Shown here: one piece after another, positions 375-11,301 of the stretch
How positions within the stretch are numbered: the stretch's first letter is position 1
How the letters are laid out: every line of letters begins with the position of its first letter
Source: a virus
IMG/VR virus record: IMGVR_UViG_3300040801_003154
Location: 1 to 36,038 of that record
DNA length: 36,038 nt
Strand: one strand, 5' to 3'
The notes under the pieces: generated by a model
Told to the model about the DNA's origin: nothing
The model's database searches: none
What the model saw: only the letters and a program-made list of their open reading frames with translations
Program-made: the position numbers and the translations under genes

Positions 375-1199
375 TTATTTATTAGGTATTGAATTCAAGA
401 GAGGTCCGAGTTTTTCTTGTAGATAATTAACCTGCGATTTCAAAAGACGGATATCATCCTGAACCCTATTTGAGTAAGCACCTGAACGATCCATATTCCA
501 AGAGACAACAGCGGAGAATTCCCAAATTTCTAAAAGCTCTGTTCGATCAACTTCAATTTCTAAATACTCTGGATTATCCGAAGTGAAATTAAAACCGACT
601 TTGGTGGCATGATGAAAGCGTTTACAAAACAAGCTTTCAACAGTAACGATAACGTAAATCACCCCCTGTCTCATAAATTGGTGGTTCTCCACATATCGAC
701 CAATAACGAAATCTTTATCATGAATCGTGTTCTGCATACTTTGACCGCTAATCTGAAAGCATCTATATGTAGCGTTCCTTAGTTCAGGATAAGGAAGTTG
801 AAGGACAGGCAAATCCGCAAAGTATTCCGGTCTATCAAAGTTGTTAGGATAACCAGCACTGGCGGTTACATCAATTAAAGGAATTGTAGGTTCACCATCA
901 CTATCAGTTGTAACGGTTAATATCCTAAAATCCTTTTCAATTAAAGCTTTGTTTTTAACGTTTTTTCGTTCTGACCCATCAGTAATTGATGGTGTAATTG
1001 GCTGACCTGTGACAATCCATAGCCTATCAACATCGGGATAAGCTGAGAAAAATTTCTCTAAGAAAGGCTCTGTGACCCCGCTTGTTTTATCTAAAGTACC
1101 ATTGGGAATACCACTTTTTTTGTAAAAGGCATTTTTACTAATCCCTTGATTATTAAGAAATTCCAATACTCTTGTCTTTATGGGTGAGAAATTTTTCAC
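375..1199 (-). CDS. Phage repressor, XRE-type HTH plus S24 (LexA/CI-like) peptidase
   Basis: This 274-residue protein is probably the lysogeny repressor. Residues 8-65 look like a helix-turn-helix DNA-binding domain. The C-terminal half is an S24 peptidase: SGQSM (151-155) holds the likely nucleophile Ser154, and Lys193 in FCKRF fits the general base. An Ala115-Gly116 pair in the linker matches the cleavage site of LexA/CI proteins. The last 25 residues look like a coiled coil, which could help oligomerisation. The start is GTG at 1199; a stop lies five codons upstream and no ATG is available. It is transcribed leftward, divergent from the early operon, with a likely operator palindrome between them (1238-1253). 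SOS-type inducibility is inferred from the family. Confidence 0.85.
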   Translation of the reverse strand: MKNFSPIKTRVLEFLNNQGISKNAFYKKSGIPNGTLDKTSGVTEPFLEKFFSAYPDVDRLWIVTGQPITPSITDGSERKNVKNKALIEKDFRILTVTTDSDGEPTIPLIDVTASAGYPNNFDRPEYFADLPVLQLPYPELRNATYRCFQISGQSMQNTIHDKDFVIGRYVENHQFMRQGVIYVIVTVESLFCKRFHHATKVGFNFTSDNPEYLEIEVDRTELLEIWEFSAVVSWNMDRSGAYSNRVQDDIRLLKSQVNYLQEKLGPLLNSIPNK

Positions 1200-1457: not shown

Positions 1458-3527
1458 TTGGCAGTACCTATCAACCATATCGCCTATTTAACCTTTACAG
1501 AATTTCTGAATACAGGTCTGTATAGTCGTCAGAATCTTCTCAAGAGGATTCATGATGGTAAATACAGTACGATCAAAGATCCATCAGATAAAAGAAAGGT
1601 GCTTATAGAGTACTCTTCGCTGCAACCTGATGAAAAGGCAGCGGTAATTACGGCGAATGGAGATCCTTTAGAACAAATAAAGGAGGATCTAAGAAAGAAA
1701 GCTGATTCCAAAAAAATCGATTTAGAGACGTTATGGGAGCTAGATCAAAATGATAAGATTTTGATCACAAACACGGATCTATTCACTGAAGAGGAAGGGC
1801 ATTTAGTTAACGATTTGATCTTAGCCGCTGCCATCTGCCGATGGTATAACGGTATCAAACCTTCACAATGCAAGGAGATCGGGTACAAAAGCAAGTCCGA
1901 ATTATTCGAAGCCTTGCACCAACATCCTCGGGTGAAGTCACTGGATGGGTTTTACACCGATAATAAAAGGGTATTTCAACGCAGGTTTACCGACTTTAAA
2001 AAGAAGGATGTCACTGCCTTAATCAATAAAAACCGTAAGAATCAGAACGCCCTAAAGATCAGGACTCAAGATCAAAAGGACGTTCTTATTAGGCTCTCTG
2101 CCAGTCACAAAAACCGTGATATGGTTTGGATAGTGGAGGATTACAATCGGGTGGCCAAAATGAATGAATGGCCAGAGATAACCGAAACCACCGCTTCCGA
2201 ATTTTTGAACGATGAAGCAAATCTTGAAAACATCCTCTTCAGGAACGGCAAAGGGAAATTCAAATCGGATGTATTGCCTACAATACACCGTGACCGTCCA
2301 TCAGCTCCAGGATTACTTTGGGAAGGTGATGGAACGCCCTGGGAACTTTACTACCAGTACGAAAGGGATGGTAAGCAATATTACTGGGGTCGAAAAGTGG
2401 TTTATTTGGTTTCGGATGCCTTTAATGATTTACCTGTCGGATGGGCAATAGGTGATTCAGAAAACACTGAGCTAATCACAGCTGCCTGGAAGAACGCCAT
2501 AGAGAATACTGGTATAATGCCATTCCAGATCCGTGTTGACAATTTCGCTCGCAAGGCGTTACAGCCCGTTTACGATCAGATTTGTAAATACTTTATCCCA
2601 ACAGCTGTAGGAAATGCCAGGGCTAAACTTATTGAACAGATGTTCGGAAGGTTTTCGGCCACTAGGATATTAAAAGAATATCCAAACTGGTCAGGCTGTA
2701 ACATCACGAACCGAAGGGATAGCAACCAACCAAACCGGGATTTTTTGAACGAGGAAAAAAAGAACTTCCCGGATGAAGTTGGAGTGATCGCCCAGATCAA
2801 TGAAAGCATCAATAAGTTTAGGAATGCCTTAATCAAGAAAGACAATCTTATACGATTTGAAGCATGGGTAGAAGGTTTAAGAAATGCCAAGCATATCACT
2901 TTGGCAGGTAAGCCCGAACTAATAAAGATATTCGGCCAATGGAGGCACAAAATTAAATCAACATATACCTATGAGTTTACCAAAGATGGACTGGAAATGG
3001 TCGTTGATGGCGTACATAACTATTATATGGACTGGGATAGTCCTCAAGCTATCCAGAATTATGAAGAGTTATACGGATCGAAAGGATTAGAGGTACAATA
3101 CCTGCCCGAGGATTTATCAATGATCCGGGTTTGGCATCCAAGGCGCGAAAAGTCCTATATACTGGCAAAAGACCAATTCGTTGCGGGCAGCATTATGGAC
3201 GCCAAAGATAACCCGGAGCTTGCCAAGCTCTGGATCAAGAAAAAAGAGTTTCACCGTGAATTGATGGGGGCTGTAATCGCCAAGCATGAAAGGGTCATTG
3301 CCAACACTGAAAAGGCCATGCAGTCTATGTCGGTAGATGCCCAGGGTGTACTAAAATCTATGTTTTTGGTAGATGGAGGTAATAAACAGTACATCAATGA
3401 GGCGAAAGAAGCCCTCAAGAATATGGAAAAAGAAATTAAGGAGCCGACCTACGCGGATCTATATGACGATGCTCCTATTGCAGTAAACAATTTGCCAAAC
3501 CAGGACGAAGGCGATTTATACGATTGA
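1458..3527 (+). CDS. Mu-type DDE transposase (MuA-like)
   Basis: This 689-residue protein catalyses strand transfer for integration and replicative transposition. Residues 5-55 resemble the winged-helix DNA-binding part of MuA; 100-270 would be the end-binding region. The rve/RNase H core runs from about 285 to 400, with Asp291 (WEGDGTPWE), Asp361 (RVDNF) and Glu393 (NARAKLIEQMFGRF) as the DDE triad. MuA has 663 residues, so the length fits. The C-terminal 150 residues include a mu-C-like beta region and a charged helical tail that would contact MuB. The start is TTG, three bases after the preceding stop; no internal Met precedes the domains. It is followed by the MuB-like gene after one small ORF. 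Confidence 0.93.
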   Translation: MAVPINHIAYLTFTEFLNTGLYSRQNLLKRIHDGKYSTIKDPSDKRKVLIEYSSLQPDEKAAVITANGDPLEQIKEDLRKKADSKKIDLETLWELDQNDKILITNTDLFTEEEGHLVNDLILAAAICRWYNGIKPSQCKEIGYKSKSELFEALHQHPRVKSLDGFYTDNKRVFQRRFTDFKKKDVTALINKNRKNQNALKIRTQDQKDVLIRLSASHKNRDMVWIVEDYNRVAKMNEWPEITETTASEFLNDEANLENILFRNGKGKFKSDVLPTIHRDRPSAPGLLWEGDGTPWELYYQYERDGKQYYWGRKVVYLVSDAFNDLPVGWAIGDSENTELITAAWKNAIENTGIMPFQIRVDNFARKALQPVYDQICKYFIPTAVGNARAKLIEQMFGRFSATRILKEYPNWSGCNITNRRDSNQPNRDFLNEEKKNFPDEVGVIAQINESINKFRNALIKKDNLIRFEAWVEGLRNAKHITLAGKPELIKIFGQWRHKIKSTYTYEFTKDGLEMVVDGVHNYYMDWDSPQAIQNYEELYGSKGLEVQYLPEDLSMIRVWHPRREKSYILAKDQFVAGSIMDAKDNPELAKLWIKKKEFHRELMGAVIAKHERVIANTEKAMQSMSVDAQGVLKSMFLVDGGNKQYINEAKEALKNMEKEIKEPTYADLYDDAPIAVNNLPNQDEGDLYD

Positions 3528-6538: not shown

Positions 6539-6653
6539 ACCGGAGTAGCTTAAATGGCAAAGCAATGGTTGATCTTGGAGGTCTAGAACGAAAAGGTTGT
6601 AATTCCTGTGAGCGAAGGCAAAGTTGCGGGTTCGAATCCCGCCTCCGGTTCCA
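6539..6653 (+). tRNA. Unusual 115-nt tRNA-like gene with encoded CCA
   Basis: Three arms are canonical. The acceptor stem ACCGGAG (6539-6545) pairs fully with CTCCGGT (6643-6649), followed by T and an encoded CCA (6651-6653). The D arm is GCTT/AAGC (6548-6551, 6560-6563) with TA before it and a GG in the loop. The T arm is GCGGG-TTCGAAT-CCCGC (6626-6642). Between D and T arms there are 62 bases instead of about 22-45. The best anticodon arm I find is 6569-6585 (one T-T mismatch, loop CTTGGAG, anticodon TGG, Pro), which leaves 4 extra bases before it and 40 after it. A TAGAAC/GTTGTA hairpin may fill part of that. It may be an atypical tRNA or a tRNA mimic. Confidence 0.6.
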
Positions 6654-9434: not shown

Positions 9435-9478
9435 AACCCCTGAACAGAAAACACCCGGATCGTGACCGGGCAGGGGTT
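9435..9478 (+). repeat. 44-nt structured repeat, copy 1 (intergenic)
   Basis: The outer arms AACCCCTG (9435-9442) and CAGGGGTT (9471-9478) pair over 8 bp. The inner arms CCCGG and CCGGG pair over 5 bp around ATCGTGA; an 11-base bulge (AACAGAAAACA) lies on the 5' side. Copy 2 at 9837-9880 differs at a single base (A to C in the bulge). No T-tract follows, so a simple terminator is unlikely. Confidence 0.75.
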
Positions 9479-9498
9479 CTAATCATAATATTAATTCA

Positions 9499-9867
9499 AT
9501 GACCAGAGAAGAAATAAAGACTTCGGTATCAGACCTTAAGGAAATCCTCGATTATACCCAACTACACTTGGATATTTGCAAAATCAAAGAGCTTATGTTT
9601 TGTGACGAGGATAGGCAGTATGTTGAAGAACTATCCTATGTGTGTGTCAATAAGCGTAGAAAGAAATTCAGTTACGTAATAAAAGGCTATCACACTTGGA
9701 AGGAAGTTCATTACGATGACGGTACCGGTGAACGCCATATCATGAATCGGAAAGCATTAGTTAGAGTAGATAACGATTGGTTGTATCCATATGATGCACT
9801 TCCCAGACTAGATTATCAAAGTGTAAGTTTGCCACAAACCCCTGCACAGAAAACACCCGGATCGTGA
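9499..9867 (+). CDS. Unknown protein ending inside the second structured repeat
   Basis: This is a 122-residue protein: a helical N-terminus, then a beta-rich centre with KFSYVIKGYHTW and HYDDGTGERHIMNRKALVRVDNDWLYPYD. Family not recognised. Its last 11 codons (PQTPAQKTPGS) are encoded by the second copy of the 44-nt hairpin, and its stop TGA lies in the inner loop of that hairpin. The first repeat copy lies just upstream of its start, so this gene is bracketed by the pair and may have arrived or been duplicated together with them. Confidence 0.5.
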   Translation: MTREEIKTSVSDLKEILDYTQLHLDICKIKELMFCDEDRQYVEELSYVCVNKRRKKFSYVIKGYHTWKEVHYDDGTGERHIMNRKALVRVDNDWLYPYDALPRLDYQSVSLPQTPAQKTPGS

Positions 9868-9880
9868 CCGGGCAGGGGTT
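9837..9880 (+). repeat. 44-nt structured repeat, copy 2 (overlaps a gene end)
   Basis: This copy is 43 of 44 bases identical to that at 9435-9478, with the same 8-bp outer stem and 5-bp inner stem. It overlaps the last codons and stop of the 9499 gene and ends 14 bases before the next start. Confidence 0.75.
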
Positions 9881-9894
9881 CAAATTATACTATT

Positions 9895-10080
9895 ATGCAA
9901 CAACCCAAATACTACGTAGAAGCTTACCATGAGTCCAAGGACGATTGGCACCTATTGGAAACTTACAATGATTTTGATCAGGCTTTCAACTATGCCTGTG
10001 GTTTTAAACACACTCGTAGACGGGTGAGAAAAGATAATTGTGTTGTGGTTATTCTTTACCCTGTCCCAGATATTAGGTAA
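9895..10080 (+). CDS. Small protein, unknown function
   Basis: This is a 61-residue protein: an N-terminal strand (KYYVEAYHES), a helix around FDQAFNYACGF, a basic turn (HTRRRVRKDN) and a C-terminal strand CVVVILYPVP. It looks like a compact beta-alpha-beta fold. No family is recognised. Confidence 0.5.
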   Translation: MQQPKYYVEAYHESKDDWHLLETYNDFDQAFNYACGFKHTRRRVRKDNCVVVILYPVPDIR

Positions 10081-10084
10081 ATAA

Positions 10085-10209
10085 ATTTACCTACTTTTTG
10101 AGGTCAAGATTCGTCCACCAGTGCGTTTTGAGAAGGGTTTTCGAATTTTCTACCCATTACCTCTCACCAAAAATGTAAATGGATTTACCTACTTTTTTAA
10201 TCCAAGATT
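10085..10209. repeat. Two spaced direct repeats upstream of the structured-RNA promoter
   Basis: ATTTACCTACTTTTT occurs at 10085-10099 and 10183-10197, each followed at the same distance by CAAGATT (10105-10111 and 10203-10209). The two units are 98 bases apart, about nine helical turns, and lie 45-170 bases upstream of a good promoter. They could be sites for a regulator of that promoter. Apart from these, the stretch 10081-10462 holds the promoter and RNA described below; I see no convincing gene in it. Confidence 0.5.
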
Positions 10210-10253
10210 AACCAACGCTAAACCAAAAGACCCAGCCTGCAAATCTTCCAACA

Positions 10254-10284
10254 TTGCACTATTAAAATATTATCCATACCTTTG
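10254..10284 (+). promoter_or_regulatory. Bacteroidota-type promoter for the structured RNA
   Basis: TTG at 10254-10256, a 20-base spacer, and TACCTTTG at 10277-10284, a full match to TAnnTTTG. A start about four bases after the box is 10288, which is the first base of the closing stem of the structured RNA downstream. Confidence 0.65.
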
Positions 10285-10287
10285 GGG

Positions 10288-10428
10288 TGTCAAAGCTTAT
10301 TAGTAAAGGGATCGACACCCCTTCAAAAAACGTCGGGGCTTTTTTGTGCCCTGGAGTAAGGAACGGTGTCGTAACCCCGTGCATGTGTTATAATGACTCA
10401 TTGCAAGTCCTTTACTAAGGCTTTGACA
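10288..10428 (+). ncRNA. Candidate structured RNA (~141 nt), leader of the antirepressor gene
   Basis: The ends pair: TGTCAAAGC (10288-10296) with GCTTTGACA (10420-10428), an internal loop, then TAGTAAAGG (10301-10309) with CCTTTACTA (10409-10417), 18 bp in total. Inside are CGACACC/GGTGTCG (10313-10319, 10365-10371), CCTT/AAGG (10320-10323, 10358-10361), CAAAAAA/TTTTTTG (10324-10330, 10340-10346) and a TGCATG hairpin (10380-10405). The hairpin loop CGGGG (10334-10338) can pair with CCCCG (10375-10379) outside that arm, a possible pseudoknot. GGGGTGTC (10284-10291) could also pair with GACACCCC (10314-10321), so alternative states are possible. It is either a free small RNA or a 5' leader controlling the AntA gene that starts 35 bases later. 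Confidence 0.65.
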
Positions 10429-10436
10429 GCGGGAAG

Positions 10437-10459
10437 TGCGATACCGTTTTTTATTGCAC
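10437..10459 (+). promoter_or_regulatory. Hairpin next to the antirepressor start codon
   Basis: GTGCGAT (10437-10443) can pair with ATTGCAC (10453-10459), with one G-T pair, around ACCGTTTTT. It ends three bases before the ATG at 10463, so it could limit ribosome access; its T-run might alternatively act as a terminator for the RNA upstream. Confidence 0.4.
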
Positions 10460-10462
10460 AAA

Positions 10463-11095
10463 ATGTCAAAATTTAGTAAAATGACCAATCAAGTCATTCC
10501 CATTCGGGAAAAAGAAGGGCAACAAGTCGTAGATGCCCGAGAATTACACAATTATTTAGAAGTAGGTAAACGATTTACCACCTGGATTCAAGATCGAATA
10601 AATGATTTTGGTTTTGCTGAAGGTGAGGACTACTTCCCAAATTTGGGAATCGGCCAGAATGCAGGAAACGGCGTTTTTGCCCAGTTCCAAAGGAGAAAGG
10701 ATTATATTCTTACTTTAGATATGGCCAAAGAATTGGCAATGGTCGAAAGATCGGAAAAAGGCCGTCAAGCCCGCAGGTACTTTATCGAAATCGAAAAGAA
10801 AATGCGGGAATTGGTTAATCCCAGTCCGGCAAAGTTGCCTAATATCCCTTTGGCCAGTCAGAAAACCGCAGACGAAAGGGTGATCCGTGATGAGATTGCC
10901 TACTCGAAAAACTACATCAATAAAGCAAACCGGAAACTAAAGGCAGAGGAAGCCAAACCGAGGATTTGCGATCACTGTGGGCAGTATTGTAGGAATAAAC
11001 ATGCTTACAATACCCATTTGGGCAATTGTGCAGCCTATCAGGCCAAAAAGCTAAAGGCTAATATGTTGGTGAGCCAAACCCACGGTGAAGCATGA
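10463..11095 (+). CDS. AntA/AntB-type antirepressor with C-terminal zinc-finger-like motif
   Basis: This is a 210-residue protein. Residues 10-105 match the AntA antirepressor domain: VIPI..., VVDARELHNYLEVGKRFTTW, DYFPNLGIGQNAGNG, DYILTLDMAKELAMVERSEKGRQARRYFIEIEK. Such proteins counter phage repressors and promote lytic growth. A basic linker leads to a C-terminal motif with Cys169, Cys172, His185 and Cys189, like a C2HC zinc finger, which could bind DNA or RNA. The ATG at 10463 is chosen; ATG 10481 is possible. The frame is open from GTG 10436, which lies inside the hairpin leader. It is preceded by the structured RNA and coupled by ATGA to the next gene. Confidence 0.8.
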   Translation: MSKFSKMTNQVIPIREKEGQQVVDARELHNYLEVGKRFTTWIQDRINDFGFAEGEDYFPNLGIGQNAGNGVFAQFQRRKDYILTLDMAKELAMVERSEKGRQARRYFIEIEKKMRELVNPSPAKLPNIPLASQKTADERVIRDEIAYSKNYINKANRKLKAEEAKPRICDHCGQYCRNKHAYNTHLGNCAAYQAKKLKANMLVSQTHGEA

Positions 11096-11283
11096 TGCCG
11101 TCGATTGTAGTCCCTGAAAGTGAACTTTCCAGGAAAGAACTTTTGGAGCTTTTGGACGAACTAATTGTGGAATATGCGCTACTTGCCCTTCGTGATCCTG
11201 AACATGCAGGTCCGAATGATAAAGTAGCCAAGCATTTGTTCTACCTAAGCATGATCAAAAATAGCGTAAAGAGCGCTCAATAA
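11092..11283 (+). CDS. Small protein coupled to the antirepressor gene
   Basis: This is a 63-residue protein of two or three helices (ELSRKELLELLDELIVEYALLALRD and NDKVAKHLFYLSMIKNSVKSA). It starts in the ATGA of the antirepressor stop and ends before a rho-independent terminator, so the two form a short operon. Family not recognised; it may modulate the antirepressor. Confidence 0.5.
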   Translation: MMPSIVVPESELSRKELLELLDELIVEYALLALRDPEHAGPNDKVAKHLFYLSMIKNSVKSAQ

Positions 11284-11301
11284 TTATATTTACAAAACAC
11301 C

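Follow-up and report, generated by a model that had tools for sequence, protein, structure and literature searches.

The antirepressor Ant of phage P1 is under the control of the C4 antisense RNA (PMC8201110), and c4 RNAs have been listed for Proteobacteria and phages (PMC2864571). In the systems of phages P1/P7 and relatives described by the Rfam families C4 (RF01695) and c4-a1b1 (RF03163), a decoy copy of the target (a1/b1) and a stem-closed antisense unit are combined with a target (a2/b2) where the antirepressor operon begins; the C4 unit carries two hairpins, with segment a' in a loop and segment b' single-stranded. In Gifsy-1, a 5' RNA segment acting in trans frees the translation of the antirepressor (PMC4825925); in this IsrK-orf45-anrP system (RF01394), IsrK ends at a terminator of its own, and the system depends on an intervening ORF.

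The element described here lies in a viral DNA of 36,038 nucleotides (IMG/VR record IMGVR_UViG_3300040801_003154; hereafter, the window). A first-pass annotation had recognized a structured RNA of 141 nt at 10288-10428 and had suggested that it could be either a free 6S-like RNA or a leader controlling antirepressor expression. The structure is real, but the functional element is longer, extending approximately from 10277 to 10483, and the comparative evidence indicates that it most likely regulates the antirepressor as a c4-like antisense RNA, without being a member of RF01695. Its parts, together with the two genes concerned, are the following:

10277-10284 (+): TACCTTTG, promoter-like -7 box of the Bacteroidota type
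10284-10321 (+): dyad H0, formed by GGGGTGTC (10284-10291) and GACACCCC (10314-10321)
10288-10310 (+): 5' arm, or decoy, which nearly repeats the antirepressor start and forms the RNA 5' terminus, equivalent to a1/b1 of c4 and pairing with 10409-10428
10335-10351 (+): hairpin GGGGC-TTTTTTGT-GCCC between decoy and antisense unit, kept in L034, L089 and L168 and visible elsewhere (e.g., L307, L309, L310)
10358-10380 (+): X, the 5' half of the stem that closes the antisense unit (lower part 10358-10371, upper part 10376-10380; covarying helices 1 and 2)
10381-10404 (+): hairpin H2 with the conserved loop TTRTARTGR (helix 3; both sides changed in 6 of 8 pairs)
10409-10428 (+): 3' arm, the antisense segment
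10429-10446 (+): X', the 3' half of that stem, immediately behind the 3' arm
10447-10452 (+): TTTTTT behind X', possible intrinsic terminator (a T-rich tract stands here in nearly all loci)
10463-10483 (+): target, the antirepressor translation start region (ATG 10463, in-frame ATG 10481; pairing at 10464-10480)
10463-11095 (+): AntA/AntB antirepressor gene (Pfam PF08346, 3e-24; PHROG anti-repressor Ant, 2e-42)
375-1199 (-): CI/LexA-type repressor with a Peptidase_S24 domain (Pfam PF00717, 2e-12), which we infer to be the probable target of the antirepressor

Structure and Predicted Transcription Start of the Leader

The window leader is a real structured RNA element: the segment 10288-10428 folds with -57.1 kcal/mol versus -33.3 ± 3.6 kcal/mol for dinucleotide shuffles (z = -6.6), and none of 200 shuffles equalled it. 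The opposite strand also folds better than its shuffles (z = -4.5), as expected from the inverted repeats.

In a flavobacterium with mapped transcription starts, the sigmaA -7 box TAnnTTTG occupies positions -12 to -5 (PMC9723704); by this rule, transcription of the window leader would begin at about 10289, which differs by no more than 1 nt from the start at 10288 proposed previously. A box with at least five of the six consensus letters precedes the 5' arm by 3-4 nt in all of the 17 loci compared (six of six letters in 13), part of this set having come from a scan that required the box; the loci found without this requirement (L261, L266, L283 and others) mostly retain it. The leader promoter region of another locus (L306:869-911) shares 90-93% identity over about 42 nt with regions of gut microviruses, a resemblance that supports TACCTTTGCA as a real Bacteroidota promoter.

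Three-Way Complementarity and the Antisense Unit

The 3' arm (10409-10428) is complementary both to the 5' arm (10288-10310) and to the antirepressor start (10463-10483). Indeed, the antirepressor start, ATGTCAAAATTTAGTAAAATG, and the RNA 5' end, TGTCAAAGCTTATTAGTAAAGGG, are near-copies, and the 3' arm can therefore pair with either. The closing helix of the first-pass annotation, which is present and conserved by compensatory changes, thus corresponds to the pairing between decoy and antisense segment; it owes its existence to the fact that the 3' arm copies the antirepressor start, the true target, in antisense. This third copy had been overlooked, and it explains the structure.

A second helix, X/X' (10358-10380/10429-10446, followed by TTTTTT), encloses the 3' arm, and the resulting antisense unit of about 95 nt (10358-10452) consists of the closing stem, the hairpin H2 and the exposed arm. 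H2 is the second hairpin noticed earlier. The pseudoknot postulated earlier reflects a real pairing, but a different one from that envisaged, since CCCCGT (10375-10380) pairs with GCGGG (10429-10433), beyond the RNA as then delimited, to form the upper part of X/X'. The loop closed by X/X' is long for a terminator, and the T-run suggests that termination at X'-TTTTTT is possible. In the arm of the window, a weak small hairpin is seen only in the minimum-energy fold.

The two duplexes differ in strength, the mean energies being -27.3 kcal/mol for decoy and arm versus -21.0 kcal/mol for target and arm (-26.6 versus -16.5 in the window); in some loci (L054, L261) the target pairing is as short as 8-10 bp.

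Conservation of the Pairings among Bacteroidota Loci

Ant-based searches and geometry scans yielded 12 Bacteroidota loci in which the anatomy is complete (the window, L034, L018, L054, L089, L175, L174, L177, L260, L261, L262 and L168), among which L089 belongs to a Cytophagales MAG, L175 (= L091) to a Sphingobacteriales MAG and L168 to the Spirosoma MAG of L115. In these loci, as in the 17 compared later, the order is always decoy, X, H2, 3' arm, X', T-run and target. The letters of the arm vary from locus to locus while the pairing is kept (TGTCAAAGC..., TGTCAAACATTC, TGCAAAACACACAATAC, TGTCTTACATTC, TGACTTTCGG..., GCGACACTTG...), and the 5' arm of every one of the 17 loci duplicates the start region.

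The specificity of these pairings was assessed by exchanging partners between loci (12, later 17) and computing the duplexes with RNAduplex in 20,000 permutations. For 5' arm and 3' arm, for 3' arm and gene start, and for X and X', no permutation was as good as the matched partners (0/20,000 each), and each 5' arm had its own partner as the best one in 17 of 17 loci; two control pairings gave no signal. Since some loci had been found by requiring complementarity, a second run of the test used 17 copies picked by covariance models or by the X/H2/X' pattern alone, in which the arms were not scored as pairs; the outcome was again 0/20,000 for both arm pairings. Three copies of this set deviate: neither partner is present in L265, a matching decoy is missing in L311b, and a clear target in L318.

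The dyad H0, which spans the start site, has equivalents in about 11 of the 17 loci, with 1/20,000 in the swap test. Its left arm lies mostly upstream of +1, and counting the transcribed part only, the signal is weak (428/20,000). The pairing of GGGGTGTC with GACACCCC, formerly considered an alternative fold of the RNA, is retained as a dyad, but one largely outside the predicted transcript on its left side; H0 is an additional feature of the locus.

The RNAalifold consensus of four sequences (the window, L034, L089 and L168) pairs X with X' and forms H2, leaving the antisense arm single-stranded. In 16 sequences of the antisense unit, double changes affect 18 of 28 pairs, and the covariation score is 0.456 versus 0.180 for shuffled and at most 0.095 for slid alignments; the 16-sequence alignment was fitted to the model, and a four-sequence MAFFT alignment agrees with it. 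Compensatory changes in homologues, whose absence would have spoken against the RNA, were thus found, and they support well the proposal that the leader may control antirepressor expression.

These data bear on two other readings of the locus. One is that the repeats act at the DNA level, as operator dyads, MITE ends or an invertible segment, an idea suggested by the inverted repeats of 18-23 bp and by the dyad across the promoter. It appears very improbable, because the retained pairs include G-U pairs, the arm letters are wholly different between loci, unlike a protein site or a transposon end, and the order of the parts is fixed relative to promoter and start codon. The MITE or transposon-end version was dropped, the arm letters being unconserved and a third copy lying at the start codon. 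The other is the free 6S-like RNA of the first-pass annotation, binding RNA polymerase; the long closed helix and the length of 141 nt are reminiscent of 6S RNA, yet no 6S match was obtained from Rfam at any threshold, the antisense arm accounts for the helix and the consensus fold consists of X/X' and H2 with the arm unpaired, so that its probability is practically negligible.

Distribution of the Leader

Further copies were found by scans with the RNA model only and by a pattern scan, bringing the total to about 30 in Bacteroidota phages and genomes, many of them detected via the X/X'/hairpin model alone. By model score, 10 of the 12 pattern matches were genuine, the other two (L304, L313) being chance matches. 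Weak matches to model R2 (L271-L282; 22-28 bits), devoid of the geometry, were also treated as chance. The promoter-free scan is noisy in G+C-rich DNA when used alone, and for this reason it was employed only alongside covariance models, Rfam or swap tests. In the survey draws, model R1 (E ≤ 0.01) matched in 4 of 395 genomes, with the full geometry at both sites of G251 and at one site of G022 (L264), and model R3 in 3 of 149 genomes; this rarity per genome fits a cassette carried by mobile elements.

One copy (L265) scores 49 bits with no decoy, target or ORF nearby, and it is probably a relic. In L311 (minus strand, 9881-9979 and 10287-10379), leader-plus-small-ORF cassettes are arranged in tandem. 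The decoy of one of these copies suits the neighbouring type and mismatches its own arm, which suggests recombination between cassettes. A blastn search of window positions 10200-11300 against phages returned just a short match in the ant coding region, and the exact 18-nt pattern of the 3' arm had a single match in viral contigs (L082), judged to be due to chance.

Comparison with Known RNA Families

At the gathering score, Rfam gave no relevant match in the whole window, nor in the leader at E values up to 10, and none of its families matched any of 26 Bacteroidota loci. As a positive control, the same promoter-free geometry scan also retrieved proteobacterial ant loci that correspond to Rfam C4, c4-a1b1, isrK and sRNA-Xcc1, four of which (L251, L227, L233, L215) score 55-68 bits against RF01695. 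Since one scan finds both these named controls and the Bacteroidota loci, which match no family, the element would be c4-like in its working but is outside RF01695. The earlier remark that no described RNA of this form was known in Mu-like phages must be qualified: the c4/a1b1/isrK system of proteobacterial phages has the same plan, although it belongs to another sequence family.

The likeness to C4 lies in the order of decoy copy, antisense unit and target, in the size of the antisense unit (about 85-95 nt), in the stem-closed form of the unit that holds the antisense segment (here covarying X/X' and H2) and in the position of this segment upstream of the antirepressor operon start, on the same strand and complementary to it. 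With c4-a1b1 the leader shares the upstream duplicate of the target, although the RF03163 model itself gives no match. The differences are that a single hairpin (H2) and a 20-nt arm replace the two hairpins of C4, that a TAnnTTTG promoter stands directly before the decoy and a T-run after the stem, that no covariance model matches, and that the hosts are Bacteroidota rather than the Proteobacteria and phages listed for c4 (PMC2864571). IsrK-orf45-anrP is similar in that a 5' RNA segment, a downstream antirepressor and competing pairings govern translation (PMC4825925); it differs in the terminator and intervening ORF mentioned above, and no sequence or model match to RF01394 was found here. 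As for sRNA-Xcc1 (RF02221), at L186 (2381-2466) it precedes an ant gene with the same decoy/antisense/target geometry, with a different sequence and structure model that leaves the Bacteroidota copies unmatched; sRNA-Xcc1 itself may regulate antirepressors in the manner of c4.

The literature searches revealed no previous account of this leader; a possible exception is the candidate HMP2_4078 of a human microbiome survey, located in Bacteroidetes near phage domains (PMC8040213). Within the literature and the Rfam release searched, the leader is apparently undescribed in Bacteroidota.

Two further features were noted in the window. Positions 6539-6650 (+) form a tRNA-like sequence of 112 nt (Rfam tRNA, 44.6 bits; gathering score 29), of which some 40 nt are additional to the usual anticodon/variable region and for which ARAGORN makes no call. 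Near-identical nested-hairpin copies, ACCCCTGnACAGAAAACACCCGGATCGTGACCGGGCAGGGGTTC, lie at 9437-9479 and 9840-9882 (+), each directly before a small ORF (9499 and 9895), and this pair is possibly another intergenic regulatory repeat.

Genes Downstream of the Leader

Several relatives have the target immediately ahead of the ATG, and the homology of the window antirepressor begins at residue 7; these two observations favour ATG 10481 over 10463 and suggest that the former is the true start. Elsewhere in the window, an ORF at 1458-3527 has a sub-threshold match to the integrase core (rve) and is followed by an AAA ORF, an arrangement that would fit a Mu-like early region; a MuA-like transposase query found nothing in the viral contigs.

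The leader also precedes Bro-N genes (L264, L312 and, weakly, L307), a KilA-N gene (L309) and three SymE-family toxin genes (L266, L268, L297) of one Bacteroidota genome, G251. The SymE genes score 49.6 bits (L266), 40.9 bits (L268) and 42.9 bits (the gene beside the L297 leader) against Pfam, and the antisense arm is present; L297 was found via a SymE family search, in the same genome as the other two. Unlike SymR of the E. coli type I toxin-antitoxin pair SymR/SymE, which is encoded opposite symE, the antisense unit here is upstream on the same strand, as in c4. At L283 the leader stands ahead of a 284-aa protein without an assigned family, and the adjacent proteins at L306, L308, L310, L311, L314 and L315 have no Pfam match; this Pfam scan of neighbours covered loci other than L305, L317 and L318. 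At L168, the sole such case among the loci, the target sits before a small ORF located between leader and ant. In P1, icd precedes ant, and the small ORF of L168 resembles it in this respect.

Many Bacteroidota ant genes (e.g., L095, L097, L116, L139) and most SymE genes of the survey have no leader. The three SymE genes and the small ORFs without assigned function that carry it raise the question of whether an antitoxin-like role was the original one, with a general phage gene-silencing module from which the antirepressor use derived. We regard this as rather improbable, the commonest identifiable neighbours being of the AntA, Bro-N and KilA-N type.

Proposed Mechanism

With considerable confidence, we propose that 10277-10483 is a c4-type antisense control element, whose arm would block antirepressor translation and whose 5' decoy would oppose this block. 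The RNA would begin at about 10289, its first 22 nt or so being the decoy copy of the antirepressor start. The exposed arm would base-pair where translation of the co-transcribed gene begins and block ribosomes, so that the antirepressor stays silent in the lysogen; it would act in trans if the unit were freed by termination at X'-TTTTTT or by processing, and in cis on read-through RNA. The decoy, on average the better partner, would compete for the arm, so that the gene might escape as transcription rises; the escaped antirepressor would then inactivate the S24-type repressor, leading to phage induction. Because the decoy duplex is stronger than the target duplex, the decoy should take the arm first on its own transcript, and silencing would thus need antisense RNA without the decoy. 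In P1, processing frees c4 from its decoy.

The presence of every part on one predicted transcript, the resemblance of X/X' and the T-run to a terminator and the single arm contested by decoy and target might also be read as a cis-only attenuator or riboswitch, devoid of trans action, in which alternative pairings switch expression on a signal, a ribosome or a protein. We consider this possible, but only tentatively so: the same geometry in Proteobacteria belongs to a known antisense RNA family, and beyond the short motifs of X and H2 there is no ligand-like conserved core, the letters varying where the pairing is kept. Somewhat less likely still, although compatible with the c4-type scheme, is an activator in which an abundant 5' decoy RNA captures the 3' arm in trans and turns the gene on. 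IsrK of Gifsy-1 is a precedent for the decoy segment also activating in trans (PMC4825925), and the Rfam isrK model matches across this upstream region in the control loci L215 and L227; in most loci, however, no terminator is evident between decoy and antisense unit.

Biological Significance

For antirepressor control by c4 RNA, only Proteobacteria and their phages are listed (PMC2864571). If a c4-like class exists in Bacteroidota, it would provide a directly testable handle on the lysis-lysogeny choice of prophages that are abundant in guts and water. The leader also offers an unusual case of three-way RNA co-evolution, involving decoy, antisense segment and target. On the whole, we think it probable that c4-like antisense leaders form a large, undescribed class in phages and mobile elements of Bacteroidota, representing a portable silencing cassette for antirepressors of unrelated folds, SymE toxins and uncharacterized small phage proteins, whose decoy and arm are re-tailored to the start of each gene. 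As the cassette also precedes SymE toxins and uncharacterized genes, it may represent a way to find phage genes that need to be silenced.
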